Assembly: GCA_009692615.1 (NCBI GenBank)
Contig: SHYW01000038.1
Location: 1-42,109, forward strand
Length of the DNA: 42,109 nucleotides
Origin: Deltaproteobacteria bacterium
GTDB lineage: Bacteria; Desulfobacterota; Binatia; UBA9968
Direction: 5' to 3'
Each line of letters begins with the position of its first letter. Position 1 is the stretch's first letter. This document shows positions 1 to 19,119 of the stretch, one piece after another. The notes beneath the pieces are model-generated. The model was not told the DNA's origin. It searched no databases and saw nothing but the letters and a program-made list of their open reading frames with translations. A program made the translations under genes and the position numbers.

Positions 1-99
1 TTGCCGTTCGCTCACTCCCATCACCCGTGCGGCCTCAACCACGGTGATCTCGCTGCGATATACTCGTTGAATTACGTCTAGTCGTTTCTCGTCTTTCAT
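1..99 (-). CDS. IS transposase, N-terminal 33 codons (partial)
   Basis: Read on the minus strand from the ATG at 99, this gives 33 uninterrupted codons that run off the left edge. The peptide starts MKDEKRLDVIQRVYRS and continues into a helix-turn-helix pattern (VEAARVMGVSERQ). This is the usual N-terminal DNA-binding domain of ISNCY/IS481-type transposases; the family assignment is tentative because the DDE domain is not in view. The same codons occur at the right edge on the plus strand, so both window ends lie inside copies of one insertion sequence. Confidence 0.8.
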   Translation of the reverse strand, partial: MKDEKRLDVIQRVYRSEITVVEAARVMGVSERQ

Positions 100-176
100 T
101 GTCAGGGTTGTCATCCTTCCACCCTGACATAATTACGTTGCCGTTAACCTCTGACATAATCACTTTGCTACAACAC
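33..176. repeat. IS terminus, left copy (inverted relative to right end)
   Basis: Bases 33-176 are the reverse complement of 41966-42109 with one difference (T at 150). Identity stops abruptly at CTACAACAC (176), which I take as the outer tip of the element, so the tip reads TGTTGTAGC. Within the tip an 18-base motif of the form AAnGTnATTATGTCAGGG occurs twice with a 27-base period. Repeated sub-terminal motifs like this are typical transposase binding sites. Only this one end of the element is in the window. Confidence 0.85.
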
Positions 177-313: not shown

Positions 314-1021
314 ATGAAACCACAAGAATGGCGGCAACAGTTAGGCGAGTGCGTGCGTGACCTGTTTCGTTCGCCGGAGATGACGCAGTTTTATTCGGTC
401 AAGCTGACCCAGAAGCGGGCGCAGATTTATCTTTTGCAGTTGAGTCTCTATGTCCGCAAGCGGCGCGACTTTTGGCCGCAAGTGGCCGCCAATTGTCCGG
501 AGTTCGACGTCAAGCAGCGTATCATGTCCCATGAATATGAAGAGCTGATCGAGGATGAGCACTCGAAGCATGGCCACTTGGATCTGATCTTTCGCCAGGG
601 CAAAGAGGTCGGCTTGAGCGTCGACGATATCCTCGGCGCCGAACCGCTGCCGACGACCACAGCGGCGGTCTACGCTTGGTGGTGGATCGCGCGCACGCGC
701 AGTTGGCAAGAAGCCGTAGCGGCGTCGACCATCGCCGAATGGACCAATGACGACCGTTTGCTCGGCGATCTGGGCGGCGGCAATTGCACACGGCTGTACA
801 AAAATTGGAAGGGCGATTTGAATTTCACCGACGCTCAGATGCCGAACTTCACCGCGCACGCCAAGGCCGACGTGAAGCATTCAGACATGTTCATCGATGT
901 CTTGGAAAAGTATGTCGTGCCGGGACGCGAACAAGACGTGCTCACCACCGCGAAAGAATCCATGGACATTCACCGCGCCTATTTCGGCGGCATGGCCCAG
1001 GCGATGGAAAAAGTTAACTAG
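314..1021 (+). CDS. Haem-oxygenase-fold (TenA/PqqC-like) putative di-iron enzyme
   Basis: The 235-residue soluble protein has the length and all-helical composition of the TenA/PqqC/haem-oxygenase-like superfamily. Acidic and histidine residues cluster at 74-88 (HEYEELIEDEHSKHGH), Glu142 lies mid-protein, and H182-x3-D186-x2-H189 follows. These are arranged like the metal ligands of haem-oxygenase-like di-iron oxidases such as CADD. Known members oxidise small substrates with O2 (UndA, CADD, BesC), or are cofactorless like PqqC. There is no signal peptide. It heads a four-gene operon with an aromatic-ring dioxygenase and two decarboxylases, so an oxidative step on an aromatic or carboxylic acid is likely (inference). 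The substrate is unknown. The start is fixed by the AAGGAAGGA ribosome site. Confidence 0.7.
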   Translation: MKPQEWRQQLGECVRDLFRSPEMTQFYSVKLTQKRAQIYLLQLSLYVRKRRDFWPQVAANCPEFDVKQRIMSHEYEELIEDEHSKHGHLDLIFRQGKEVGLSVDDILGAEPLPTTTAAVYAWWWIARTRSWQEAVAASTIAEWTNDDRLLGDLGGGNCTRLYKNWKGDLNFTDAQMPNFTAHAKADVKHSDMFIDVLEKYVVPGREQDVLTTAKESMDIHRAYFGGMAQAMEKVN

Positions 1022-1055
1022 ATCTTTCGCATTAGCATTGCCAAGGGAGCGCCGG

Positions 1056-2054
1056 ATGAAACTCGAAGAGCTCGATAGCCAACTGGAAAAAAACCAACTC
1101 TCCGGTTTCTGGCGCACCCGCGTGCCGTCGCATTCGTCGGAAGCGCCGTATCTGTGGAAATGGGAAGCGCTGCTCGATGGCTTGCTCAAGGCGAGCGAGA
1201 CCATCGGCATGGAGCAGGCGGAGCGCCGGGCGATTCGCTTGGTCAGTCCGCACCTGGAGATTAAATCCACGTCGCACACGCTGCAGATTACTTTCTCGAT
1301 CGTCAATCCTGGCGAGGTCGCCAAGGCGCATCGCCACAACATGGCGGCGATCCGCTTTGTCGTGCAGGGCAAAGGCGCCTACACGGCGGTGGACGGCGAA
1401 AAATTCTACATGGAAGAGGGCGATCTGATTCTAACGCCCAATTGGAGTTGGCACGATCATCACAACGAGTCGGAGGATCCGATCATCTGGCTCGACGGCT
1501 TGGACGGGCCGCTGATTCAATCCCTCAACGTGTTGTTCTTCGAAGACTTAGAAAAGCCAGAGCAGGAGATTACCCGGCAGACCGGCGAATCGCTCAGCCG
1601 TCTCGGTTTCGCGCGCACGCCGAAACCGACCGAGAATTTTCGCCGCGGCGTGCCATTTCGGTATTCTTTCAAGGACACCTATAAGGCGCTCAAGGCGATG
1701 GGCCCGGCCGATCGCGATCCGTACGACGGGACGTTGCTGCGTTACATCAATCCCGCCACCGGCGGTTATACCTATCCAACCATGTCCTGCGAGATCCAGC
1801 TGTTCAACGCCAAAGAGACGACGCAAACGCACCGCCACACCAGCTCGGCACTCTATCACGTCGTTAAAGGCCAGGGGCGCAGCAAAGTCGGCGACAGCTA
1901 TTTGGAATGGAAGAAGGGCGACAGTTTCGTGATCCCGCTCTGGCAATGGCATTCACACGAAAACCTCGGCAACGACGAAGCGATGCTTTTTTCCATGAGC
2001 GATCGGCCGGTGATGGAAGCGTTGCAACTATATCGCGAAGAGGCCGGCGGTTAG
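1056..2054 (+). CDS. Gentisate 1,2-dioxygenase-like bicupin
   Basis: The 332-residue protein has two cupin barrels and resembles gentisate / 1-hydroxy-2-naphthoate dioxygenases (about 350 residues), which open aromatic rings with Fe(II) and O2. The first barrel has H92-x-H94 (AHRHNMAAIRFVVQG) with His133; the second has H259-x-H261 with His299. Both barrels therefore keep a 3-His site, whereas many gentisate dioxygenases keep a full set only in the N-terminal barrel. The ATG at 1056 is chosen over longer upstream starts because AAGGGAG lies just before it (about 1042-1048) and it clears the preceding gene by 34 bases. Second gene of the left operon. Ring cleavage is probable from the family; the substrate is unproven. 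Confidence 0.75.
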   Translation: MKLEELDSQLEKNQLSGFWRTRVPSHSSEAPYLWKWEALLDGLLKASETIGMEQAERRAIRLVSPHLEIKSTSHTLQITFSIVNPGEVAKAHRHNMAAIRFVVQGKGAYTAVDGEKFYMEEGDLILTPNWSWHDHHNESEDPIIWLDGLDGPLIQSLNVLFFEDLEKPEQEITRQTGESLSRLGFARTPKPTENFRRGVPFRYSFKDTYKALKAMGPADRDPYDGTLLRYINPATGGYTYPTMSCEIQLFNAKETTQTHRHTSSALYHVVKGQGRSKVGDSYLEWKKGDSFVIPLWQWHSHENLGNDEAMLFSMSDRPVMEALQLYREEAGG

Positions 2055-2099
2055 CTTCTCGCAGAATTCTCGTGCTTAAATTTCTTTTCTGAGATACTT

Positions 2100-3104
2100 A
2101 TGGCCGCAAACGAAAAAATTCGCCTTGCCAGCCGCGCCTATGACGGTACGCTGCCGATCCTGCGCGGGCAGATGGCGATTCCCGGATTCGACTTCGAAAT
2201 TACCGAGACCGAAGATGTGCCGGGCATGTTCGCCGGTATGTACAAAGGACAGTACGATGTTTCCGAGATGTCGCTGGGCGAATTGATCTCTTATACTTCA
2301 CGCGGCAAAGCTGACTTTATCGCCATTCCGGTTTTTCCTTCGCGGATGTTTCGTCATGGTTTTATTTTTTGCCGCAAGGATTCGGGCATCGACCAGCCGG
2401 CTGATTTGAACGGCCGCAAGATCGGTTTTCTCCGCTGGGTGCAAACCGCGGCGATCTGGATGCGCGGCATGCTGGTCGATTCCTACGGCGTGTCGGCCAA
2501 AGATTCCGAGTGGCATGTGGCGTCGATGCACCACTGGGACGATCACGATCCCGGCGCCACGGTGGTGTCGCGCGACGGTTCGGCGATCCGCATGATCGAA
2601 AACCGCGGCAAGAACACTTCCGAGCGCGCTTGCTTTGCCTTGTTCGACGGCCAAGTGGACGCTCTCGGCGTCACTGAATCGCAGCTGCCGACGCTCCTCG
2701 CCAATAAAAGTGTTCGACGGCTGTTCGAAAATCCTCAGCAAGTGGAAGCGCGTTATTTTCGCGACACGAAAATTTTGCCGATCATGCATGTGTTGGCGAT
2801 ACAGAAAAATCTCATTGAGCGCCATCCCGAGCTGCCGACGCAGCTGTTTCAACTTTATGTCGAAGCCAAGCGCTGGGCCCAACGCTGGCGCCGGGCGATT
2901 CCGAGTTTGGTCGAGGCTTGGCCCAATCAGTATCTCGACGACGAACGGGAAGTTTTTCAAAGCGATCCTTGGGCCTATGGCTTAGCGGCGAACCGCCATG
3001 TGCTCGATAAGTTTTTTGCCTATTGTCACGGGCAGGGAATTTCCGGCCGAGAGATCGCACCGGAAGAAATTTTCCATCCCAGCACCCACAATTTAACTGA
3101 GTAA
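2100..3104 (+). CDS. 4,5-dihydroxyphthalate decarboxylase-like protein (periplasmic-binding-protein fold, cytosolic)
   Basis: The 334-residue protein has the type 2 periplasmic-binding fold seen in 4,5-dihydroxyphthalate decarboxylase (Pht5) and NMT1-like proteins. It opens directly with a beta-strand (EKIRLASRAYDGTLPILRG) and has no signal peptide. Typical stretches are YDVSEMSLGELI near 50 and GIDQPADLNGRKIGFLRW at about 95-115, then a Trp/His-rich segment (SEWHVASMHHWDDHDPG). The missing leader and its place between a ring-cleavage-type bicupin and a UbiD decarboxylase favour an enzymatic role, non-oxidative decarboxylation of an aromatic acid, over transport. Automated tools would probably call it an ABC substrate-binding protein. 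The exact reaction is an inference. Confidence 0.7.
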   Translation: MAANEKIRLASRAYDGTLPILRGQMAIPGFDFEITETEDVPGMFAGMYKGQYDVSEMSLGELISYTSRGKADFIAIPVFPSRMFRHGFIFCRKDSGIDQPADLNGRKIGFLRWVQTAAIWMRGMLVDSYGVSAKDSEWHVASMHHWDDHDPGATVVSRDGSAIRMIENRGKNTSERACFALFDGQVDALGVTESQLPTLLANKSVRRLFENPQQVEARYFRDTKILPIMHVLAIQKNLIERHPELPTQLFQLYVEAKRWAQRWRRAIPSLVEAWPNQYLDDEREVFQSDPWAYGLAANRHVLDKFFAYCHGQGISGREIAPEEIFHPSTHNLTE

Positions 3105-3131
3105 CTTGCCGCGATTTCGAAGGGAGTTTCC

Positions 3132-4616
3132 ATGGCGACCGCAACCCAAACGAATGTGACCCAAAGCGTCGATCTGCGCGACTGGCTCAAAGAGGTCAAA
3201 CGGCTGGAGCAATTCGAACAGATTTCCGGCGCCCACTGGGATTTGGAGCTCGGCGCGTTGACCGAAATCATTCTCGAAAGAAATCCCACGCCGCCGGCGG
3301 TGATGTTCGACAACGTGCCGGGCTTCGATCCCAACCGCCGAGTGCTGGTCAACATGCTGGAAACCTTGGAGCGCACGGCGCTGACGCTCAACCTGCCGTT
3401 GGATTTGAAAACTATTCCGTTAATCGACGCGCTGCGCGCCAAGCTGCGCGCCATGCAGCCGATTCCCGCCAACGTGGTTAAGACCGGTCCGGTGTTCGAG
3501 AACGTCGCGCACGGAGATGAGATCGACTTGACGAAGTTTCCCGTGCCCCGCTGGCACGCCGGCGACGGCGGTCGCTATCTCGGTACGGCGCACTTGGTGG
3601 TGACCCGCGATCCGGAAACCGCGGTGGAAAATATCGGCTGCTACCGGGTCATGCTGCAGGACAAGGACAAAGTCGGTTTGTACATCTCGCCGGGAAAACA
3701 CGGCAAGATTCATTACGAGAAGGCGATGAAGGAGGGCAAGCCGTTTCCGGTGGCGATGGCCTTTGGCCAGCATCCGCTGCTTTACATCGCCGCGTCTCAA
3801 GCCGTGCCGTTCGGCGTCAATGAATACGATTGGGCTGGTGGACTCATTGGCCAAGCGATCGATGTCATCGAAGGTCCGGTGACTGGCTTACACTTTCCGG
3901 CCAACTCGGAGATCGTCATCGAAGGCGAAATCATTCCCGGCGAATCGATGCAGGAAGGGCCCTTCGGCGAGTGGCCGGGTTATTACGCCAGCGCGCGCCG
4001 CGCCGAGCCGTTCGTGCGCGTTAAGGCTCTCTATTATCGCAACGATCCGATCATCACCGGCGCGGCGCCGTTCAAACCGACGATTCACGGCATGTATCGT
4101 TCTTGTTTGCGCGCGGCGACGGTTTGGAACGGCATGGAGCAAGCCGGTGTCCCCGATATTAAAGGCGTCTATTTACCGCCGCCGGCGCAGCGCTTTATGA
4201 TCGCCGTGGCGATCAAGCAGCGCTATCCCGGCCACGCCAAGCAAGCGGCGTTGGTGGCCTGTCAATGCCACGCCGGCGCTTATCTCGGCCGCTACGTGGT
4301 CGTCGTCGACGACGACATCGACATCACCGACACCAACGAGATCCTCTGGGCGATCTGCACTCGTTCCGATCCGGAAACCTCGGTCGATATTTTGCGCCGT
4401 TGTTGGAGCGGGCCGTTGGATCCGATCATTCAGCCTGGGCAAAAGGGTTTTAACTCGCGCATGATCATCGAAGCGGTGCGGCCTTGGGAATGGCGCGATA
4501 AATTTCCCGCCACCAGCGCGATCACCGATGAGACGCGCAACCAGTACGCGACCAAATGGCGTCGCCAACTGGAGCAAGTCCAGGCGCGCCATAGCGTCAC
4601 GCGCGGGCGCGAATAG
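3132..4616 (+). CDS. UbiD-family prFMN-dependent decarboxylase
   Basis: The 494-residue protein matches the UbiD/ferulate decarboxylase family in length and motifs. The catalytic Glu-Arg-Glu set is visible as R172 (GCYRVML), E275 and E280 (EGPFGEW), at nearly the same positions as in fungal Fdc1. The N-terminal PAVMFDNVPGF and C-terminal VVVDDDIDITDTNEILWA stretches are also typical. These enzymes add or remove CO2 on aromatic or alpha,beta-unsaturated acids using prenylated FMN made by UbiX; no ubiX gene is visible in this window. The ATG at 3132 follows AAGGGAG. It is the last gene of the left operon, with 27 bases separating it from the previous gene. Confidence 0.9.
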   Translation: MATATQTNVTQSVDLRDWLKEVKRLEQFEQISGAHWDLELGALTEIILERNPTPPAVMFDNVPGFDPNRRVLVNMLETLERTALTLNLPLDLKTIPLIDALRAKLRAMQPIPANVVKTGPVFENVAHGDEIDLTKFPVPRWHAGDGGRYLGTAHLVVTRDPETAVENIGCYRVMLQDKDKVGLYISPGKHGKIHYEKAMKEGKPFPVAMAFGQHPLLYIAASQAVPFGVNEYDWAGGLIGQAIDVIEGPVTGLHFPANSEIVIEGEIIPGESMQEGPFGEWPGYYASARRAEPFVRVKALYYRNDPIITGAAPFKPTIHGMYRSCLRAATVWNGMEQAGVPDIKGVYLPPPAQRFMIAVAIKQRYPGHAKQAALVACQCHAGAYLGRYVVVVDDDIDITDTNEILWAICTRSDPETSVDILRRCWSGPLDPIIQPGQKGFNSRMIIEAVRPWEWRDKFPATSAITDETRNQYATKWRRQLEQVQARHSVTRGRE

Positions 4617-4983
4617 TTTTTTCCGCCAGTAATCTGTCAAAGGTTTGACAGTGTCTTCGCCATGGATATTGTCTTTGGCGAAGCTCGTAAGGTAGTTTTC
4701 TTATCGATTAATTCAACCTGGCGATTGTGCCAGTATTTTTTGTTGGCGACACACATGGTTGGCCGTAAACCGTATTAATTGGCCAATTTTGTCCGCGCAC
4801 AGTATAGGCTCGCGCTTCTGTGTCGTTGCTTACATTTCTTCGCGTCACGAGGGATATCTTTGGAAAATTGGGGTCTTAACCAGTGTCGTTAGGCGGTAGA
4901 GCCAGTTGGCACGAGACGTGCTCATTCTTAGCCACTGGTGAGTTGTCACAGGCGATTTAAATCATAGTAAGGAGAACCGTCGA
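4617..4983. other. 367-base intergenic region with three inverted repeats
   Basis: No coding sequence is evident. An 18-base perfect palindrome (CTGTCAAAGGTTTGACAG, 4634-4651) lies 18 bases after the UbiD stop. It is followed by a 7-base-pair hairpin CTTCGCC...GGCGAAG (4655-4683). Neither is followed by a T run, so termination is possible but not classical; the first could be an operator. A 12-base palindrome AATTGGCCAATT is at 4777-4788. A good ribosome site (TAAGGAG, 4968-4974) serves the next gene. The region separates the left operon from the small HTH gene and should contain that gene's promoter, which I could not pinpoint. Confidence 0.5.
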
Positions 4984-8459: not shown

Positions 8460-9869
8460 GTGATCTTCACCGACCTCAGACATTACGTTTCGACGCTGGA
8501 AAAACTCGGCCAGCTGCAGGTGATCGAGGGCGCCAGCTGCGAGCTGGAGATCGGCGCGATCACCGAGATGGCGACGGCGCGAGCCAATTCGCCGGCGGTG
8601 CTGTTCGACTCGATTCAAGGTCATCAAAAAGGTTTTCGTGTGCTGACCAATTTTCTCGCCCACAAAACCCGCGAGCGGATGGTTTACGGCGTCGATGAGA
8701 ATTTATCCGACTCGGAAGCGGTCAAGTTCTGGAAGAACAAATTAAAGACGGTGGCGCCCATCGAGCCCAAAGAAGTCGCCAGCGGGCCAGTCAAAGAAAA
8801 TGTCATGCAGGGCGACAGTGTCGATCTGACGAAATTTCCCTGGCCGCGTTGGCACCAACGCGATGGCGGACCCTATATTTGCGCTACCGCGACCGTCACG
8901 CGCGATCCCGATTCCGGTTACATCAACGTCGGTTCGTACCGTTACATGTTGCTCGGCAAGAACAAAATTGTCGCGCATATCGGCTCCGGCCATCACGGCG
9001 ATGTGATCCGAAAAAAATACTGGGCCAAGGGCAAAGCTTGTCCGGTCGCGATCTCTCTCGGCCAGGAGCCGGCGCTGTTTGAAACCGCGGGGACCAATTT
9101 AAGCTGGGGCGTTTCCGAATACGGCTTTGCCGGTTGGATGCGCGGCGCGCCGGTGGAAGTGACCAACGGTGTTAGCACCGACTTGCCGATTCCCGCTCAT
9201 TCCGAAGTCGTGCTCGAAGGCGAGATGTTGCCGCCCGAGGACGGCACGCAGATCGAAGGACCGTTCGGCGAGATGTCGGGCTACTACGGCGGCGGCGCGC
9301 GGCCGGCGCCGATCACGGTCATTTAAAGCGTGCTCTATCGCAACGAGCCGATCATTCTCGGCGCGCCGCCGTTTTTGGGCGCCAGCCGCGGCATTCTCTC
9401 ATCGCGCGGCATTCTCATCTGGAACGAACTCGAAGCACTCGGTATTCCCAACATCATCGGTGTCAATTATTCCTGGGGGATGACGATCATCTCTCTCAAG
9501 CAAGCCTATCCCGGACATGCCATGCGCGCGGCCCACGGCGCGTTGGGCGGCACGGCGGGTTATCACGGCCGCTTCGTGATCGTCGTCGACGACGACATCG
9601 ATCCGTTCGATTTGCACGATATCATGTGGGCGTTGGCGACGCGCTGCGATCCGGAAAGTTCGCTCGATGTCTGCCGGAGAATCTGGAGCTACAAGATCGA
9701 TCCGCGTTTGTCCAAACAAAAAAAAGAAGCCGGCGATTACACCGGCGCGGTGGCGATCATCGACGCGTGCCGGCCCTATCATTGGATCGACGAATTTCCG
9801 CGCACCACCAAGATCGACGAAGAGTTGTTGAAAGCAACCGAAGAGAAGTGGGGCAAGTTTTTTAAGTAG
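8460..9869 (+). pseudogene. UbiD-family decarboxylase interrupted by an in-frame TAA
   Basis: Two stretches in the same frame, 8460-9326 and 9330-9869, together make a 469-codon UbiD homologue with one stop (TAA at 9324-9326, codon 289). The N-terminal part has the catalytic set R161 (SYRYML), E266 and E271 (EGPFGEM); the C-terminal part has VIVVDDDIDPFDLHDIMWA. Aligned with the intact UbiD at 3132 (VRVKALYYRN against TVI*SVLYRN), the stop falls exactly on a lysine, so a single AAA-to-TAA change explains it. The truncated product would lose the C-terminal domain used in oligomerisation. A GTG start follows directly on the OsmC stop. Sequencing error or recent inactivation are both possible. 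Confidence 0.85.
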
Positions 9870-11253: not shown

Positions 11254-13619
11254 ATGGAATTTCCGATCAATCCGCCGATTGGCTAACGAGTTAGAAGAAA
11301 AGAAACCGAGCGCTTCGTTTCCGGCACCGGCCGCTACGTCGACGATCTGCTGCCGGCGGGAACGCTGCACGTTTCGTTCGTGCGCAGCTCCTGCGCCCAT
11401 GCGCGGATTAAATTCATCGACGTCGAAGCGGCGCGGACCATGCCCGGCGTGCGCGCGGTTTACACCGGCGCGGACATTGCGCAGCATGTCAAACCGCTGC
11501 GCGTCGGCGGCAGTTCGGTGCTGCGGCCGGTGAAGCTCTATCCGCTGGCGGTGGATAAGGTGCGCTATTTTGGCGAGCCGCTTGCGGCGGTGGTCGCCGA
11601 CGACCGCTATCTCACCGAAGACGCCGTCGACATGGTTTCGGTGCAGTACGAAATGTTGCCGACGTTGGTGGATGTCGAAGCGGCGATGGAACCGGGCGCG
11701 GCGTTGGTCCATGAAGAGGCCGGCAGCAACGTCGTTTACAAATATCACTTCGCCACCGACGGTATCGACAATGTTTTTGCCGACGCCGATATTATCATCA
11801 AAGAAAAAATCCGCAGCCATCGGATCACCGCTTGTCCCATCGAGCCGCGCGCTTATCTGGCGTCGTTCAATAAAGAAGAAGACAGCTTGACCATGTGGTC
11901 GGCGACGGCCAATCCGCACTCGCTGCGCGGCCGCATCGCCGATATTCTTAGCTTCCCCGAAGGCAAGATCCGCGTCATCGCGCCGGATGTCGGCGGATCG
12001 TTCGGTGTGAAAATTCAAACCTACCAAGAAGAATTGCTGTTGCCCTATCTGTCGCGGGAATTCGGCCGGCCGGTCAAATGGTGCGAGACCCGGGTCGAAC
12101 ATATGCGCAACGGCCGCCATGGGCGCGATCAGATTCACTACATTGAAATGGCGCTCAAAAACGACGGCACCATGTTGGCGATTCGCGACAAGATCATCGC
12201 CGACATGGGCTCGACTTACACCGTCGATCATTCGATTCAAGCGGCGGCGCTGTACATGACCGGCGTTTACCAAATTCAAAACTACGAAGTGAACGCCGTC
12301 GGCGTCGCGACCAACAAGACCACCCACGGCTCGCTGCGCGGCATCGGCAAGGCCGACGCTTCTTACATTCTCGAGCGGCTGGTCGACATCGCGGCGCGGC
12401 AATTGAAGATCGATCCCATCGACATTCGGATGAAAAATTTTATTCCCAGCGAGGCGTTTCCTATCGCAACGTCACCGGCGCGCTCTACGACAGCGGCCAG
12501 TATCATCTGGCGATGAAGCGCACGGCGGAAATGGCGGACTACACTCAACTGCGTAAAGAACAGTTGGAACTGCGCAAGCAAGGAATTTTCCGCGGCATCG
12601 GCGTCGCCTTCGTGATGGAGCCGACGAGTTCCAGCCGGATTCATGCCACCGGCGGTTACGCGTCGTGCCGGCTGCGCATCGATCCCTCGGGAGCGGCGAC
12701 GGTATTTTCCAGCATGGGCGAGCAGGGCCAAGGCCACGAGACGACGCTGGCGCAGATCGTCGCCAGCCAAACCGGCATTCCCTTTGACAAGATCACCGTG
12801 ATTCACGGCGATACCTTGCCGACGCCCTACGGTTTCGGCACCGGTAGCAGCCGCTCTTCGGTCGTGCTCATGCCGTCGGCGTGGGTGGCGGGTAAACTGA
12901 TGCGCGACAAAATCCTCGGCATCGCCGCGCGGCAATTAAAAGTAGCGCCGGAGAATTTACAGATCGGCGATGGCAAAGTGTTCGCCAAAGAAAATAGCGA
13001 GCAGTCGATCGCGGTGATGGAAATCATTCGCACCGCCTACGGCGCGATTCATTTGCTGCCGGAAAACATGGAGCCGGGTTTGGAAGTGACCGGCTACTTC
13101 ATCAATCCCAATATCGATTACACGCCGGACGACAAAGGGCGCATGAACACTTTTTCCAGCTATCCCTACGCGGCGGTGATCGCGCTGGTCGATGTCGACA
13201 TCGAAACCGGCATGATCAAGATCGTCAAGTATTTCACCGTTCATGACTGCGGCAACATGATCAATCCGCAGATCGTCGACACTCAGCAGCAGGGTTCGAT
13301 CATGCAAGGCATCGGCGCGGCGCTCTACGAAGAGCTGCGCTACGACGAAGACGGTCAACTTTTGTCGTCGACCTTCATGGACTATCGCTTGCCGTCGGCG
13401 GAGGAAGTGCCGGAGCTGCACTTGGAACATATCATCACGCCCAATCCGTTCACGCCGCTGGGCGCCAAGGGCGCGGGCGAGACCGGCATGCTCGGACCGC
13501 CGCCGGCGTTGTGCAGTGCGGTGGAAGATGCCTTGAGTCCCTTCGGCGTGAAGGTGCGGGAGACGCCGCTGACGCCGGATCGAATTTTGAATCTCATCGA
13601 GAAAGCGCAGGCAACGTAA
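11254..13619 (+). pseudogene. Molybdenum hydroxylase (xanthine/CO dehydrogenase-type) large subunit with nonsense and frameshift
   Basis: The reconstructed product is about 789 residues, normal for CoxL/XdhA-type catalytic subunits. Motifs seen: SGTGRYVDDLLPAG, SCAHARI, PDVGGSFGVKIQ, SLRGIGKADASYILERLVD, GEQGQGHETTLAQ, GTGSSRSS and the catalytic-type Glu in GAKGAGETG. Two lesions are visible. The probable start ATG 11254 gives MEFPINPPIG and then TAA (11284-11286), where family members usually have Lys before RVRRKE. At 12460-12462 one base is missing: TTTCCTATC would need TTTCCCTATC to join AFP to YRNVTGALYDSGQYH. The intact parts are 11380-12516 and 12513-13619. Substrates of this family include CO, purines, aldehydes and aromatic heterocycles. 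Confidence 0.85.
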
Positions 13620-13623
13620 AGCA

Positions 13624-14100
13624 ATGGCCAAGGCAATTTCTTTAACTGTAAACGGCAAACCGTACTCGGGCGAGGTGGAGTCGCGGACACTGCTCGTGCA
13701 TTTTTTGCGCGACGGGTTGCGTTTGACCGGGACGCACGTCGGCTGCGTGGTCGGACGCTGCGGCGCCTGCACGGTGATGTGGAACGGCACGGCGGTGAAG
13801 TCGTGCATGGTTTTCGCCGTGCAAGCCGACGGCGATGAAGTTACCACCGTCGAAGGCTTGGTTCAGGATAAACGATTGCATCCGTTGCAAGAAGCGTTCT
13901 GGAAAAACGACGCGGTGGAGTGCGGCTACTGCACGCCGGGCATGTTGATGTCGGCCTACGGTTTATTGAGCAAAGAAAGCAACCCGACGGAGGAGCAAAT
14001 CAAAAAAGCGATCTCCGGCAATCTGTGCCGTTGCACGGGCTATGGCAATATCGTCGCCGCGATCAAAGAGGTGGCGAGCCACTTCGTGGATTCCAAATGA
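13624..14100 (+). CDS. Molybdenum hydroxylase small subunit, two [2Fe-2S] clusters
   Basis: The 158-residue protein carries the plant-ferredoxin-type motif GCVVGRCGAC (C41, C46, C49) with C61, and the helical-domain motif C100-x2-C103 (ECGYCTPGM) with C135-x-C137 (NLCRCTG). These bind the two clusters that pass electrons from the molybdenum centre to FAD. It sits 4 bases after the large subunit and is intact, as is the FAD subunit at 15916, so only the catalytic subunit is damaged. The length is typical of CoxS-like proteins. Confidence 0.95.
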   Translation: MAKAISLTVNGKPYSGEVESRTLLVHFLRDGLRLTGTHVGCVVGRCGACTVMWNGTAVKSCMVFAVQADGDEVTTVEGLVQDKRLHPLQEAFWKNDAVECGYCTPGMLMSAYGLLSKESNPTEEQIKKAISGNLCRCTGYGNIVAAIKEVASHFVDSK

Positions 14101-14104
14101 CAAA

Positions 14105-14149
14105 TCTCAAATTTCAAAATTTTGAATCTGGAATCTGAAATTTGTAATT
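14105..14149. repeat. AT-rich AAATTTCAGA-type dispersed repeat
   Basis: This is an AT-rich run of near-palindromic words (CTCAAATTTCAAAATTTTG, GGAATCTGAAATTTGTAATT). TCTGAAATTTGTAAT recurs in reverse complement at about 29848-29862, so this is a third dispersed family, separate from the CACGAAG and GTAGGGGCG types. Confidence 0.55.
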
Positions 14150-14164
14150 ATGAGCGGAGCGAAC

Positions 14165-14833
14165 ATGGTGAGCATTCTCAAAGATATTGCCATCGATGGC
14201 GTGAAAATTGTGCCCTGCCGCATCGCCATGGGCAATCGCGGCGTGGTTAAATCTTTTCTCGTCGCCGGCGACGATCATCGGGTGATCTTGGTCGACACTG
14301 GCGCGTCGGACGCCGACGCTGACATTATAATGGACGCCATCAAGGACATGGATCACAAACATGCGGATTTGAAACTCTGTGTGCTGACCCATCGCCACGG
14401 CGATCACACCGGCGGTTTGAAGAAACTCAAAAAGACGCTCAAATTCGAAGTCATGGCCCATGAGCTCGACATGCCGGCGATCCAGCAAGCGACCGGCTAC
14501 GACGTCGAACATATCGTCCAAGGCGGCGAAAGATTGCCCGACTGCGGCGGCATCAACGTGATTCATACGCCGGGCCATACCGCGGGCCATATCAGTCTGC
14601 ATCTCCCGCGCATCAAGACCATGATCGCGGGCGACGCGATCGTCAGCGCCGGCGAGCATTTGATGGTATCGCCGACCTATCTGTCCTCCGACCCGCAAGC
14701 GGCGCATGAAAGTGTTCGGCGCCTGATTGGTATGAATCTGGATCTGGAGCGGCTGCTGGTGGGGCATGGCGACGATGTTTACTTTGGCGCTAAAGAAAAT
14801 ATCGCGCGCATCTTCGCCGGTCCGCGGCCATAG
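14165..14833 (+). CDS. Metallo-beta-lactamase-fold hydrolase
   Basis: The 222-residue protein has the metal motif H76-x-H78-x-D80-H81 (THRHGDHTGG), then HTPGHTAGHISLHL, the GDAIVSAGEH aspartate region and a late GHGDDV. These ligate one or two zinc or iron ions in glyoxalase II / lactonase-like hydrolases. No substrate can be assigned. The ATG at 14165 is preferred over 14150 because GGAG lies six bases before it. It is placed between the hydroxylase small and FAD subunits, suggesting a shared operon, perhaps hydrolysing a lactone or thioester product (inference). Confidence 0.85.
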   Translation: MVSILKDIAIDGVKIVPCRIAMGNRGVVKSFLVAGDDHRVILVDTGASDADADIIMDAIKDMDHKHADLKLCVLTHRHGDHTGGLKKLKKTLKFEVMAHELDMPAIQQATGYDVEHIVQGGERLPDCGGINVIHTPGHTAGHISLHLPRIKTMIAGDAIVSAGEHLMVSPTYLSSDPQAAHESVRRLIGMNLDLERLLVGHGDDVYFGAKENIARIFAGPRP

Positions 14834-14884
14834 CTTGTGGAGCTATTTTAAGAGATAAACCGCGGACGCGATTCGGGAAATCTT

Positions 14885-15913
14885 ATGCAGCGAAAATTTA
14901 TTGCGATTGCTTTGTTTTTGCAGTTTATCAGCCCAGCGGCGTTCGGCGCCGAAGCGCTGAAAAAAATCCGCATCGCCTCCAAAGCGCCAGGCGAATCGCT
15001 GGTGCCCTATCTGATTTCTCAGCGTCTGGGTTTTTACCGTGAAGAAGGTTTAGACGTTGACGTGATCGTCACCCGCGGCACGGTGACCACGCAGGTGGTG
15101 CTGAGCGGCGCGGTGGACTATGGCAACGGCGGGTCGATTCCAGCGATTCTCGGCGGCGCGCGCTTGAAGATCAGTCAAGTGAGCACCGACAAGCCTTCGC
15201 AATACTTAGTCGTCTCGCCCAAGATCACCAACGTTAAACAATTAAACGGCAAGACCATCGCAATCTCCGATGCCTCGGGCAATTCGACATTGCTGTTTCG
15301 CGAACTGCTCGGCAAAAACGGCGTCGCCATCGAAACGGTACAGATGCGCGCCCTGGGCGAACCGTCGGTGCGCTTCGGCGCCATGCTTTCCGGCACGGTG
15401 GACGCGACGATGATCTCCATTGCCATGGCCAAACAGCTTCAGGCCAAGGGCTTTCGTATTCTCGCCTACAGCGGCGATTACGTTTCGTCCCTCAGCGCCA
15501 ATCTGGAAACCGCCGATGACAAACGTCAAAACGCGCCGGAGGAGGTTTATCGCGTCGTCAAATCGACCCTCAAAGGACATATGTATTTCCATCGCAACGT
15601 CAATGAGTCGGTGAAATTTTTAATGGAGGTTCTGCGGCTCAAAGATTTCAACGAGGCGAAAGAAATTTGGCGCGAGCGCGACAAGCAGGTTTCCGAGCTC
15701 GCCGCCATCGGCCGGGCGAGCGAAGAAGTGATGACTTCCAACATCGAGCGCGTGCAGGTGCAGATGAAAGCGGTGGGCGCGCCGAGCCGGATCAAGACTC
15801 CGGTGACCCTCGATCAGGTTTACGATTTTAGCTTCGTCAAAAAAGCTTACGAGGAACTGCGCGCCAGCAAGTGGGACCCGATGCGCTACGAGTACAGCAA
15901 GAAAGCGATGTGA
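14885..15913 (+). CDS. NMT1/TauA-type ABC substrate-binding protein (orphan)
   Basis: The 342-residue protein has a clear signal peptide (MQRKFIAIALFLQFISPAAF, cleavage near GA-EA). The NMT1-like binding fold follows: KKIRIASKAPGESLVPYLIS, GFYREEGLDVDVI, VDYGNGGSIPAILGG, then the second lobe INGKTIAISDASGNS-like segment. It binds a small organic ligand in the periplasm. No permease or ATPase of the matching class is adjacent, so it must use a transporter encoded elsewhere or act as a sensor. Its stop is 2 bases before the FAD-subunit ATG, so it is co-transcribed with the molybdenum hydroxylase and may bind that enzyme's substrate. Confidence 0.9.
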   Translation: MQRKFIAIALFLQFISPAAFGAEALKKIRIASKAPGESLVPYLISQRLGFYREEGLDVDVIVTRGTVTTQVVLSGAVDYGNGGSIPAILGGARLKISQVSTDKPSQYLVVSPKITNVKQLNGKTIAISDASGNSTLLFRELLGKNGVAIETVQMRALGEPSVRFGAMLSGTVDATMISIAMAKQLQAKGFRILAYSGDYVSSLSANLETADDKRQNAPEEVYRVVKSTLKGHMYFHRNVNESVKFLMEVLRLKDFNEAKEIWRERDKQVSELAAIGRASEEVMTSNIERVQVQMKAVGAPSRIKTPVTLDQVYDFSFVKKAYEELRASKWDPMRYEYSKKAM

Positions 15914-15915
15914 CC

Positions 15916-16797
15916 ATGTATCCAGCGAGTTTTGAATATTTACGGCCGAGGGGCGTGGCCGAAGCGCTGGCGCTGTTGCGCCAGCATGGCGACGACGCGA
16001 AAATTTTAGCCGGCGGCCAGAGTTTGGTGCCGATGATGAAACTGCGCGTGGCGCGGCCGAAATATTTGATCGACATTCATCGCATTAGCGATTTGAGCTA
16101 CATCCGCGAGGATGCGGGCGTGCTTCGTATCGGTGCGATGACGCGCCATATCGAAATCGAAGAGTCGGCGCTGGTAAAAAATACTTTGCCCATGCTCGCC
16201 GAGGCGGCGAGCGAGATCGGCGACGCGCAGGTGCGCAACCGCGGCACCATCGGCGGCGGCTTGGCCGAGGCCGATCCGTGCGGCGATTACGGCGCGGCGG
16301 CGTTGGCGCTCAATGGTCAGTTGAAATGCCTCAGCCCGCGCGGCGAGCGCATGATTCCCGCCGCGGAATTTTTCACTTTCGCGTACAGCACGGTATTGGC
16401 GTTTGATGAAATTCTCACCGAAGTGATTTTGCCGTTGCCGGACCAGTGCAGCGCGGGAGTTTACGTGAAGCTCGAACGGGTCGCCGGCGACTTCGCCATC
16501 GCCAGCGCCGCGGTGCAGTTGAGTCTGGATAAACGCGGCGCATGCAGCGCCATCGGCATTGGCGTCACCGGCGGCCATTCGGTGCCGACCAAAGGCGTTG
16601 CCGTCGAAGCGTTACTGCGCGGCAAAAAAATTACCCGAGAGCTGATCGAGCAGGCGGGCGCCTTGATTCAACAAGGCACCGAGCCCATCGAAGACATGCG
16701 CGGCTCGGCGGCCTACAAAACCAAAGCGCTCGGCGCGATCTTGCGCCGTTCGATCGCCGAAGCGCTGCGTCGGGCAGAGGCGAAGCGGTCGACGTAA
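15916..16797 (+). CDS. Molybdenum hydroxylase FAD-binding (medium) subunit
   Basis: The 293-residue protein has the CoxM-type FAD motifs AGGQSLVP (residues 32-39) and TIGGGLAEADP (111-121), plus the C-terminal CO_deh_flav domain (YVKLERVAGDFAIASAAV). It takes electrons from the two iron-sulphur clusters and hands them to an acceptor. The ATG at 15916 begins 2 bases after the preceding stop; a longer frame from 15871 would overlap the binding-protein gene and is rejected. It is separated from its partner subunits by the hydrolase and binding-protein genes, an unusual order. Confidence 0.93.
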   Translation: MYPASFEYLRPRGVAEALALLRQHGDDAKILAGGQSLVPMMKLRVARPKYLIDIHRISDLSYIREDAGVLRIGAMTRHIEIEESALVKNTLPMLAEAASEIGDAQVRNRGTIGGGLAEADPCGDYGAAALALNGQLKCLSPRGERMIPAAEFFTFAYSTVLAFDEILTEVILPLPDQCSAGVYVKLERVAGDFAIASAAVQLSLDKRGACSAIGIGVTGGHSVPTKGVAVEALLRGKKITRELIEQAGALIQQGTEPIEDMRGSAAYKTKALGAILRRSIAEALRRAEAKRST

Positions 16798-16834
16798 ACG
16801 GGCAGAAAGTTTTTTTGGCGGGTTGTCAGCTTAC

Positions 16835-17908
16835 ATGAGAGGAGTCTTCACCACGAAGGTCACGAAGGACACGAAGGTTTCGGATAATTGGAACTCCGAA
16901 CTTCGTGTCCTTCGTGCCTTCGTGGTGAATTCGACTTTGTTCATTCTTGCCTCGCTCGGCACTGCGTCATATGCCACGCAGACGGCGGCGCCGCTCGCCA
17001 ACGTTACCATCGCTTACACTTCGGTTTCGCCGCAGTACGCGCCGGTGTGGATCGCCAAGGAGGCGGGCTTGTTCAGAAAGAACGGTGTCAATGCCCAGCT
17101 GGTTTACATGCGCGGTGGGATCATCGCCACTCAGGCGTTGGTGAGCAATGACGTGCAGTTCATCAATGCCGGCGGCGGCGGAGTGGTCGATGCGATGCTC
17201 GGCGGCGCGGATATTTTCATCGTCGCCAGTCCGATCAATCAAGAGCCGCAGGTGTTGGTGGCGCGCCGCGAAATAAATGATATCGCCCAGCTCAAAGGCA
17301 AAAAGTTAGCGGTCAACAGTCTTGCCGGTCCGGCGATGTTGTCGCTGAAGATGATTCTCGCCGCCGCCGGCCTTGACCCCGAGCGCGATGTCAGCTACCT
17401 AGCCACCGGTCCGAGCGGCAGCCGTTTCGGCGCGCTGCAATTAGGCCAGGTGGACGCGACCCCGTTGGCACCGCCGTTTACTTTGGCGGCGCGCAAAGCC
17501 GGTTACACATTTTTCGAAAATATTCCGGCCATGAAAGATTCGGAATTACCCAACGGGGCGCTGATCACCAGCAGAAAATATTTCGACGCCGAGCCGACGG
17601 TGAGCGAGGCGGTGATCAAGTCGGTGATCGAAGGGATTCATTTCTACAAGAGCGAGCGCGTCAAAACCACGGCGATCATGAAAAAATATATGCAGCTGGA
17701 AAACGCCGAAGAGCTGCTGGAGACTTACAATTTCTACGTCAAACTGCTCGCCGAAAAACCCTATCCTTCGGCCAAGGGCATTCAGACGATTCTCGATTGG
17801 TCGAAACGGGCGGATGCCAAAAAGGCCAGCCCGGCGCAGTTCATTCAGACCAAGGTTATCGAAAAGTTGGACAAGCAAGGATTTATCGACGGACTGTATC
17901 GGCGTTAA
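16835..17908 (+). CDS. NMT1-type ABC substrate-binding protein (orphan), 5' end inside a dispersed repeat
   Basis: The mature part is a normal NMT1-like binding protein: ANVTIAYTSVSPQYAPVWIA, AGLFRKNGVNAQLVYMRGG, GGGVVDAMLGGADIF, QLKGKKLAVNSLAG. The export signal reads LRAFVVNSTLFILASLGTAS with cleavage near YA-TQ. The start is uncertain. ATG 16835 (with GGAG after it) gives an N-terminus encoded by the CACGAAG repeat (VFTTKVTKDTKV...). GTG 16925 would give a very short leader lacking positive charge. The repeat is open in this frame throughout. The native start was probably lost or replaced when the repeat arrived. No permease is nearby. Confidence 0.8.
   Translation: MRGVFTTKVTKDTKVSDNWNSELRVLRAFVVNSTLFILASLGTASYATQTAAPLANVTIAYTSVSPQYAPVWIAKEAGLFRKNGVNAQLVYMRGGIIATQALVSNDVQFINAGGGGVVDAMLGGADIFIVASPINQEPQVLVARREINDIAQLKGKKLAVNSLAGPAMLSLKMILAAAGLDPERDVSYLATGPSGSRFGALQLGQVDATPLAPPFTLAARKAGYTFFENIPAMKDSELPNGALITSRKYFDAEPTVSEAVIKSVIEGIHFYKSERVKTTAIMKKYMQLENAEELLETYNFYVKLLAEKPYPSAKGIQTILDWSKRADAKKASPAQFIQTKVIEKLDKQGFIDGLYRR
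16847..16929. repeat. CACGAAG-type palindromic repeat overlapping a gene start
   Basis: The left arm has three 9-base units (CCACGAAGGTCACGAAGGAC), with a matching right arm ending TTCGTGCCTTCGTGGTGAA. The loop (TTCGGATAATTGGAACTCCGAA) is the reverse complement, with small changes, of the loop in the copies at 39080 and 40302, so this copy sits in the opposite orientation. It lies across the 5' end of the binding-protein gene. Confidence 0.85.
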
Positions 17909-17930
17909 GGCCGAGTGAAATTGTCGCATC

Positions 17931-17954
17931 GGCAAGGGGCGTCTCGCCCTTGCC
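17931..17954. terminator. GC-rich hairpin after binding-protein gene
   Basis: GGCAAGGGGCG and CGCCCTTGCC pair with one bulge and a short loop. The hairpin lies between the binding-protein stop and the bicupin start. There is no T run, so it may be an RNA-stabilising hairpin rather than a true terminator. Confidence 0.4.
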
Positions 17955-17979
17955 CAGGTCGGCTGAAAAGGTAATTCAC

Positions 17980-19119
17980 ATGGAAGAGCGTTGGCCCTGG
18001 GAAGATGAAAAATCCGCAGCGATCGATCCGCACGCGCAGCAGTGCGCCGAAGAAGCGTTCAAAAATAAACTGCCCCACGTGATCAAGCCGTTGGCGGTGC
18101 AGGGCACGGTGATGGGCAAGAGCAGCCCGCACCAGACCGGCGATATCGTTTGCTACGATTATCTCAAGCGCGCGCCGCTCTACGATCTGACCGGCCATTT
18201 TTCCGATATCAAACCGAAAGCGCCGGTGCGCGGCGCCCATCGCCATATTAGCGCGCCGACTTTGTTCTGCGTCAGCGGGCGGGGCTGGGAAGGCAACGAC
18301 GGCAAGATTTACTGGTTCAATACTTACGACATGCTGGTGGTGCCGCCGTTCACGATTCATCAACATGGCGGCGATGAGCAGATCGGCGCGGAGATTTTCG
18401 TGCCCCAGAGCCGGATGTTCAGTCTGCTCGGTTTGACCAAGCGCGAGCAGATCAAGTTTGGCGAGAAGCCAACCTTTTCGCAAAATACCGAGCCGCTTTA
18501 CGATGACGAAAAGAAGCTGATTGGCTACCGGATTAAAAAAGGCGTGCTCGGCATCAAAGAAGATATCGACGTGATGCTCGGCGCCGATCAAGAGACCGAA
18601 GCGGTGTTTCAGGGCCGCAAGAACGCCGAACCGTGGCAGGGGCCGGTGGCTAACACCTACGACCGCTATTTGAAGATGTTCCAAGACGAAGGCTGTTTTT
18701 GCAATGACCTAACCCATGTGGTGGCATTTGAAGATCAACCCTGGGAATGGTCCCGCCAGGGCAAGCTCAAATGGTTCACTCATCCCGAGATGAACAGCGC
18801 GGCGCGCCGGTTGTGGCTTTACATGCAGGAAATTGCCGCCGGCACCCGGTCGGGAAAGCACCGCCACATGATGGAAGAACAGATTCTGGTGCTGCGCGGC
18901 CGCGGCCACGACGTTCACGACGGCCAGCGCTGGAACTGGGAGCGCGGCGATCTGATCAACATCCCGGCGATGACCGAGCACCAACATTTCAATGACGACG
19001 ATCGCGACCCGGCGCTATTTTTGGTGTCGATGCCGAGCGTCAGCGCCGATCTTGGGCTGGGCGGCATCGTGCAGATCGAAGATGCGCCGGATTACGCCGA
19101 TCATTCCGGCTCGGAGTGA
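17980..19119 (+). CDS. Bicupin protein, probable metal-dependent dioxygenase
   Basis: The 379-residue protein has two cupin barrels. The first has H87-x-H89 (GAHRHISAPTLFCVSGRGW) with H127/H129 (FTIHQH). The second has H294-x-H296 (GKHRHMMEEQILVLRGRG) with H334/H336 (MTEHQH). Both barrels keep a full metal site. The overall plan is like gentisate-type ring-cleavage enzymes but with a long inter-domain segment (about 150-280), so I do not assign a substrate. The ATG at 17980 follows AAAAGG; a longer frame from 17797 overlaps the previous gene and is rejected. It may pair functionally with the preceding binding protein. Confidence 0.75.
   Translation: MEERWPWEDEKSAAIDPHAQQCAEEAFKNKLPHVIKPLAVQGTVMGKSSPHQTGDIVCYDYLKRAPLYDLTGHFSDIKPKAPVRGAHRHISAPTLFCVSGRGWEGNDGKIYWFNTYDMLVVPPFTIHQHGGDEQIGAEIFVPQSRMFSLLGLTKREQIKFGEKPTFSQNTEPLYDDEKKLIGYRIKKGVLGIKEDIDVMLGADQETEAVFQGRKNAEPWQGPVANTYDRYLKMFQDEGCFCNDLTHVVAFEDQPWEWSRQGKLKWFTHPEMNSAARRLWLYMQEIAAGTRSGKHRHMMEEQILVLRGRGHDVHDGQRWNWERGDLINIPAMTEHQHFNDDDRDPALFLVSMPSVSADLGLGGIVQIEDAPDYADHSGSE

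Follow-up and report, generated by a model that had tools for sequence, protein, structure and literature searches.

The four-gene operon

The window analyzed here is a stretch of 42,109 nucleotides (positions 1 to 42,109 of contig SHYW01000038.1, assembly GCA_009692615.1) from a Candidatus Binatia genome of 5.05 Mb that is 98.7% complete. We focused on four co-directional genes at positions 314-4616 of its forward strand. They encode a protein of the heme-oxygenase-like HDO family, a two-domain cupin (bicupin), a protein with a periplasmic-binding-protein (PBP) fold, and a UbiD-family decarboxylase of the prenylated-FMN (prFMN) type.

314..1021, + strand: HDO-like/TENA-like gene (PF14518, PF03070)
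1056..2054, + strand: bicupin ring-cleavage dioxygenase-like gene, 332 aa (similarity to PDB 2d40, His motifs)
2100..3104, + strand: gene of the PBP-fold protein, 334 aa, relative of 4,5-dihydroxyphthalate decarboxylase (similarity to PDB 9jp7)
3132..4616, + strand: UbiD-family (prFMN-type) decarboxylase gene, 494 aa (TIGR00148, PDB 7pda)

The open reading frames (ORFs) are real and separated by 34, 45 and 27 nt, in line with the original prediction of a closely spaced operon, and its four family assignments were borne out by Pfam, NCBIfam and PDB matches. The same prediction gave each gene its own ribosome site. By eye, a Shine-Dalgarno-like stretch is clear before the HDO, bicupin and UbiD genes, and none was seen ahead of the PBP gene. 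We took the start of the bicupin to be the ATG at 1056, which is preceded by a ribosome site (the mechanical ORF opens at 897). The first gene begins 313 bases into the window, and the region upstream of the operon is cut off by the contig edge. Compared with two relatives (G004 and G014), each of the four genes has a ratio of non-synonymous to synonymous substitution rates (dN/dS) of 0.04-0.11, at dS values of 0.93-2.53, and the order is kept. Hence, all four genes are under purifying selection, and the conservation of their order at such distances shows that the arrangement is not due to chance. We read the four genes as a single unit for the catabolism of an aromatic (poly)carboxylic acid, with a probability of roughly 0.6.

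An HDO protein with a predicted dimetal site

The HDO protein is recognized by PF14518 and PF03070, in both cases above the Pfam cut-off. Two curated families are far from being reached, with 30.5 bits for TIGR04305 (CADD, cut-off 200) and 19.5 bits for the PqqC equivalog TIGR02111 (cut-off 240). Its AlphaFold2 model has a pLDDT of 89.5, dropping under 50 in a single stretch (residues 80-84) that lies between E77 and H88, and a seven-helix heme-oxygenase-like fold is predicted. The best match among solved folds is CADD (VIA-align Z 24.2, root-mean-square deviation 2.1 over 208 residues), and other structural matches include HrmI (Z 21.2), BesC (20.9), UndA (20.1) and FlcD (Z 20-21). The codons of the predicted metal ligands are as follows.

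542-544 (E77), 575-577 (H88), 737-739 (E142), 857-859 (H182), 869-871 (D186) and 878-880 (H189), + strand: predicted HDO ligands, from conservation among homologues and the alignment with CADD

The original prediction placed the metal site at H182, D186 and H189. These ligands agree with ours, but they make up only half of the site, which E77, H88 and E142 complete. All six residues are invariant in 99 of the 99 HDO homologues of at least 600 nt from the loci that we fetched (see below), and so is W131. A profile of 21 homologues aligns the six residues with the site of CADD, a 4-aminobenzoate synthase, at positions that we take to be its dimetal ligands. A 3H/3C ligand set is described for the HDO superfamily in part of a review (PMC13108848). 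The protein is thus predicted from conservation and from the model to be metal-competent, and probably binds a dinuclear metal center and activates O2. A check proposed with the original prediction, that a modeled structure should hold such a site, came out in its favor, the fold being CADD-like and the six-ligand set intact.

The likeness to CADD in fold and predicted ligands goes with clear differences. The two proteins share 17% identity, the TIGR04305 score is far below its cut-off, and the sacrificial Tyr27 of CADD lies in an insert relative to the family of the window HDO. This family is also multi-copy and often found beside catabolic genes.

The bicupin, the PBP-fold protein and the UbiD protein

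The bicupin is similar to the gentisate dioxygenase of PDB 2d40 (E 3.4e-72), and each of its cupin domains carries a His triad (H92/H94/H133 in the N-terminal one, H259/H261/H299 in the C-terminal one). These HxH and His motifs liken it to gentisate 1,2-dioxygenase, to the 5-aminosalicylate dioxygenase MabB and to salicylate dioxygenase. The N-terminal HxH...H site (H92, H94, H133) aligns with that of 2d40, whose N-terminal His residues are presumably the ligands. The C-terminal triad is invariant in 52 of the 52 bicupins of the fetched loci, in contrast to 2d40 and 3nst, where it is not kept; the gentisate dioxygenase 3bu7 has a C-terminal motif that resembles it. Judging from these alignments, the active site of many members of the family may lie in the C-terminal rather than in the N-terminal domain. 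The NCBIfam scores of the window bicupin, led by 5-aminosalicylate dioxygenase, are 302-304 bits and remain below the equivalog cut-offs for gentisate and 5-aminosalicylate dioxygenases (for gentisate 1,2-dioxygenase, TIGR02272, 301.8 bits with a cut-off of 442.1). We considered a gentisate assignment and, given these scores, did not make it.

The only PDB match of the PBP-fold protein below E 0.7 is 9jp7, named 4,5-dihydroxyphthalate decarboxylase by its depositors (E 9.8e-44). The similarity covers the full length (residues 7-331), and the R-x-F-R and P-x-x-H residues are kept in 22 of 22 homologues as well as in 9jp7. No signal-peptide-like start was seen by eye at its N-terminus. We regard it by homology as a putative decarboxylase, with the differences that it is distant from 9jp7 and that the operon of the window has no other phthalate-pathway genes.

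The UbiD protein reaches the subfamily score of TIGR00148 (293.6 bits, cut-off 244.85) and is close to PDB 7pda (E 3.4e-110). Like 7pda and the UbiD enzymes acting on vanillate and phenolic acids or of the phenylphosphate type, it has full UbiD domains. Its residues R172, E275 and E280 match the R and E-x4-E motifs of the family, which we take to be catalytic and which are both present in 37 of the 39 UbiD matches longer than 1200 nt in the fetched loci. It differs in scoring under the cut-offs of the VdcC (285 bits) and phenyl_P_beta (281 bits) subfamilies.

SznF likewise combines an HDO domain with a cupin metalloenzyme domain after it, in a single protein according to a passage of PMC13108848. 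The pair could then be a split version of it, in which HDO would N-oxygenate an amine and the cupin would rearrange the product, in a biosynthetic or N-compound pathway devoid of ring cleavage. The top NCBIfam score of the bicupin is in line with this, since 5-aminosalicylate dioxygenase has an amino-aromatic substrate. However, in the window the two proteins are encoded by separate genes, and the cupin is a two-domain relative of gentisate dioxygenases (E 3e-72) with 16 PDB matches at E 0.1, none of which is an SznF chain. Furthermore, the frequent neighbors are decarboxylase families acting on aromatic acids, and SznF is described as 3H/4C whereas the six ligands of the window HDO align to the 3H/3C set of CADD. 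We consider a split SznF very improbable. An SznF chain was also absent among the 50 structural matches listed for HDO, which is no evidence against a relation.

Conservation of the gene order

We searched 58 relatives, own genome included. The window-type HDO was found in 20 of them, namely the own genome and others that are 67-92% identical, some being partial. Two of the 20 (G003 and G025) are cut by contig ends. In the other 18 window-type loci the downstream side can be seen, and in 17 of them the bicupin is the next gene after HDO. The full order HDO-bicupin-PBP-UbiD, with gaps below 200 nt, is present in 7 genomes of one family (the window, G001, G004, G005, G014, G015 and G020). In a related family (f3), six loci have a longer version with HDO, bicupin, a divergent UbiD, PBP, UbiD and a glutathione S-transferase (GST). 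Contig edges cut HDO in two of these six, and the other four have an aldolase of the dihydrodipicolinate synthase (DHDPS) type upstream. Two further loci of the f3 type have the aldolase and are cut downstream. Among the remaining loci, G013 has a solute-binding-like gene where the PBP decarboxylase would be, and G002 is cut after the bicupin. Two records of the genome collection stand apart from the genomes matched here: L050 is cut inside HDO, and L051 is described below. The gene order is thus conserved beyond this contig, as had been asked of the original prediction.

In one f3 locus (L055, 4596-5447), an oxidoreductase of the CmcJ/NvfI family (NCBIfam 317.8 bits, cut-off 80) lies between two divergent bicupin/PBP clusters.

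Association of HDO and bicupin genes

To look beyond the window-type HDO, we fetched 60 regions by the position of HDO alone, plus nine other loci. They are a hand-picked part of the HDO clusters; the clusters of G023 and G031 and some of those in roughly ten other genomes fall outside it. The analysis covers the 67 loci with an HDO match longer than 500 nt and leaves out L059 and L060, where it is shorter. Within 4 kb of HDO we found a bicupin in 41 loci, a UbiD in 30 and a PBP-type decarboxylase in 21. Either decarboxylase was present in 39 of the 67 loci, and a bicupin together with a decarboxylase in 34. Solute-binding proteins of the NMT1 type were within the same distance in 33 loci.

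In 33 cases a same-strand bicupin comes immediately after HDO. These direct pairs span three HDO subfamilies (linkage at 40% identity) and two deep bicupin clades, delimited by eye on a tree whose branch support was not inspected. All 8 loci of HDO subfamily 2, one member of which is 31% identical to the window HDO, have a bicupin, and 7 of them have a UbiD; in the eighth the contig breaks off. The distances among HDO proteins and among their bicupins are correlated in the 30 direct pairs of full length (3 of the 33 were left out), with a Mantel r of 0.81 that is inflated by relatedness and was reached by none of 5000 permutations. The four-gene set was originally predicted as the unit. Its order does recur, but the recurrent element is narrower and consists of the HDO-bicupin pair, beside which the decarboxylases vary. 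We read this as a recurrent HDO-bicupin cassette with interchangeable decarboxylases in the catabolism of aromatic acids.

Such neighbors could also be met by mere crowding of catabolic genes, with a role of HDO that is unrelated (thiaminase- or PQQ-like, or linked to folate). With about 47 UbiD genes and 13 strong bicupins in the genome, such encounters are easy, and UbiD genes are near HDO in 2 of its 8 HDO clusters against 9% expected, which is not above chance (P 0.15). Moreover, one locus has lost HDO and kept the bicupin and PBP genes (L051, see below). Against this, a bicupin lies within 5 kb of 4 of the 8 clusters, where gene density would predict 5% (P 3e-4), in a control that ignores the clustering of catabolic genes. 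Adding the five weak HDO matches excluded from this control leaves 4 of 13 (P 3e-3). The order of the operon is kept at high dS, the scores for TIGR04305 and PqqC are far under their cut-offs, and the distant HDO of G332, which belongs to another family, lacks catabolic neighbors of the window kind. We find mere neighborhood very improbable. In the opposite direction, among 11 other strong-bicupin loci of the same genome a single one has an HDO-like match, a weak one; these counts indicate that the HDO family occurs with bicupins more often than the bicupin family occurs with HDO.

Proteins of PF04909 are found within 4 kb of HDO in 11 of the 67 loci. The best PDB matches of one member are DitZ and PtmU3; decarboxylases and two dinuclear oxygenase entries (8sm7 and 8sm6) rank below them. 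Given these matches, we dropped our earlier view of them as decarboxylases, which had put the number of loci with a decarboxylase at 46 instead of 39. Adjacent pairs of these amidohydrolase-type genes occur near HDO in seven loci (L067, L068, L075, L078, L083, L103 and L105), with a bicupin in five and a UbiD in two of them. We take this pairing to recall AibH1H2. PtmU3 is described as a dinuclear oxygenase of PF04909 in part of PMC10811679.

HDO genes also occur in tandem, four or five per array (some are cut) and interleaved with genes of solute-binding proteins of the NMT1 type, in L062, L076, L084, L094, L105 and loci related to them. A split thiamine-pyrophosphate enzyme (ComD/ComE-like) and TctC-like genes are further present in L062 and L094.

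A proposed catabolic pathway

The gene content, the conserved order, predicted active sites that are intact in HDO, bicupin and UbiD, and the linkage of HDO and bicupin in three subfamilies are the observations from which we infer metals, step order, substrate class and ring cleavage. UbiD would remove a carboxyl group through prenylated-FMN chemistry, and the PBP-fold protein would do so as in 4,5-dihydroxyphthalate decarboxylase. Before or between the decarboxylation and ring-cleavage steps, HDO would oxidize the aromatic compound with O2 at a dinuclear Fe/Fe or Mn/Fe site, most likely adding a hydroxyl to give an acid of the salicylate or gentisate type. The bicupin would then open the ring with O2. 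Relatives of this protein open rings having a hydroxyl next to a carboxyl.

The exact reaction of HDO is a guess between hydroxylation, conversion of a methyl on the ring into a carboxyl, and oxidative C-C cleavage. Hydroxylation would be the simplest and is our tentative choice among all of them, and the chemistry of CADD suggests oxidation of a ring methyl by analogy. Action on an opened chain or N-oxygenation seems less likely. If HDO oxidized a ring methyl (benzylic carbon), UbiD and the PBP-fold protein would remove the resulting carboxyl before ring cleavage, which would explain why decarboxylases stand beside HDO in 39 of the 67 loci. Yet other needs for decarboxylation account for these neighbors equally, CADD acts on its own side chains, and we know of no free methylaromatic substrate for any HDO. 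We hold this reaction to be unlikely, even with CADD as the closest solved fold. In that enzyme, as stated in parts of PMC13108848 and PMC11965152, the carboxylate of p-aminobenzoate is built from a tyrosine side chain and its oxygens derive from O2.

The position of HDO in the pathway can also be questioned. It could act after ring opening, in a manner similar to UndA and BesC, by fragmenting or oxidatively decarboxylating the aliphatic product, with the aldolase and GST finishing the process in f3. This would account for the DHDPS-type aldolase upstream of HDO and the GST after the second UbiD in that family, and both UndA and BesC cleave C-C bonds, according to a passage of PMC13108848. However, the arrays of HDO genes with solute-binding protein genes (L062, L094 and L105), in whose fetched stretches no bicupin was found, fit an early step better. 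One of these solute-binding proteins has, by eye, a signal-peptide-like start. Because the HDO genes are interleaved with them, the arrays suggest that HDO catalyzes an early step after uptake, and we regard an action after ring cleavage as quite unlikely.

Several observations weigh against the four genes as one catabolic unit for an aromatic acid. No bicupin, UbiD, PBP decarboxylase or PF04909 protein lies within 4 kb of HDO in 17 of the 67 loci, some of which are on short contigs. HDO is therefore not tied to ring cleavage. The window-type HDO stands alone in G019 (L056), the sole exception among the 18 loci counted above. In L051 (8001-10244), a remnant of about 20 codons of HDO directly precedes an intact-looking bicupin (83%) and PBP gene (77%), with no run of N. 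This speaks against a strict dependence on HDO, since the bicupin and PBP genes can outlive it unless the locus results from an assembly fault. To these we add the chance-level frequency of UbiD near HDO in the own genome, the scarcity of HDO at its other bicupin loci, and the reservations made above on the Mantel correlation and on the density control. As for the proteins, the bicupin is below the equivalog cut-offs, some classical N-terminal His positions vary across the wider bicupin family, and the PBP protein is also above the cut-offs of the solute-binding domains PF12974 and PF09084. The operon encodes no electron donor. Finally, the HDOs of validated function, about a dozen according to part of a 2026 review, have predominantly fatty or amino acids as substrates (PMC13108848).

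Elsewhere in the window, genes for the degradation of aromatics are plentiful, including LigB, two Rieske oxygenases and RraA/LigK-like aldolases, along with two PhtC-like class II aldolases that are below the curated cut-off. This wider content fits a diet of aromatic polycarboxylates and proves no substrate.

Distribution and novelty

The HDO family (E 1e-20) is found in 25 of the 35 genomes of the order, with up to 11 copies each. In the phylum sample, where at most 9 candidates per genome were scored, the same threshold was reached in 2 of 297 genomes, the own genome and G332. Four different members of the family used as queries gave no match in plasmid records, and a scan of the genome collection matched 14 records, 13 of Binatia or Deltaproteobacteria and one of Syntrophobacter sp.

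Each of the four enzyme families is already known. The original prediction knew of no described pathway with this exact set. In line with it, we found in the open-access literature no described combination of an HDO/PqqC-type protein or a UbiD with a gentisate-type dioxygenase or decarboxylase, subscription journals being mostly outside this coverage. None of the six terms that we looked up occurs in a Binatota genome paper (PMC8262859). The HDO fold is known mainly from biosynthesis, and the family may form a new catabolic class. We give about even odds to the broader view that the Binatia of this order turned the HDO fold into a large family of catabolic oxygenases. The HDO-bicupin cassette would then place two unrelated iron-type oxygenases in sequence, with interchangeable UbiD and PBP-fold proteins, and elsewhere the HDO genes would stand beside pairs of amidohydrolase-type dinuclear oxygenases.

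If true, this would be the first HDO route for the breakdown of aromatic acids known to us. A multi-copy HDO family tied to dioxygenases of the ring-cleavage type would extend the superfamily into catabolism, and the four-gene set would be a defined, expressible system for testing an O2-dependent reaction of HDO on aromatics. Such a family would likewise point to a diet for a lineage called yet-uncultured in the title of a 2021 paper (PMC8262859).

Other observations in the window and in the genome

Two further features flank the operon.

4718..4733, + strand: terminator-like hairpin with a T run, about 100 nt 3' of UbiD, possible operon end (terminator scan)
1..170, strand not assigned: putative remnant, at the contig edge, of an insertion-sequence end containing short direct repeats (sequence; repeat D8 at 124-168)

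The terminator scan of the region is not significant as a scan (5 hairpins versus 6.7 expected in shuffles), and the promoter scan of the region was not above shuffles. We presume positions 1-170 to be the end of an insertion sequence.

With the window UbiD as query, the own genome (G000, 5 Mb) gave 50 matches, 47 of which at E below 1e-29. A UbiD match at E 1e-30 was present in 84 of the 148 genomes of the phylum sample. Three genomes (G000, G091 and G185) have at least 10 matches each (52, 64 and 27 first-look candidates, respectively), and the other listed genomes have 1-5. The window has a second UbiD gene at 8460-9869 with one in-frame stop, which makes it a pseudogene or the product of an assembly error. 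We had considered an internal stop shared by three UbiD genes of the own genome and rejected it, because two of the stops are at the natural end and only that of 8460-9869 is internal. Finally, positions 11380-19119 of the window are a second catabolic cluster, with genes for the large, small and FAD subunits of a molybdenum hydroxylase, solute-binding proteins, a metallo-beta-lactamase-fold gene and a bicupin fragment.

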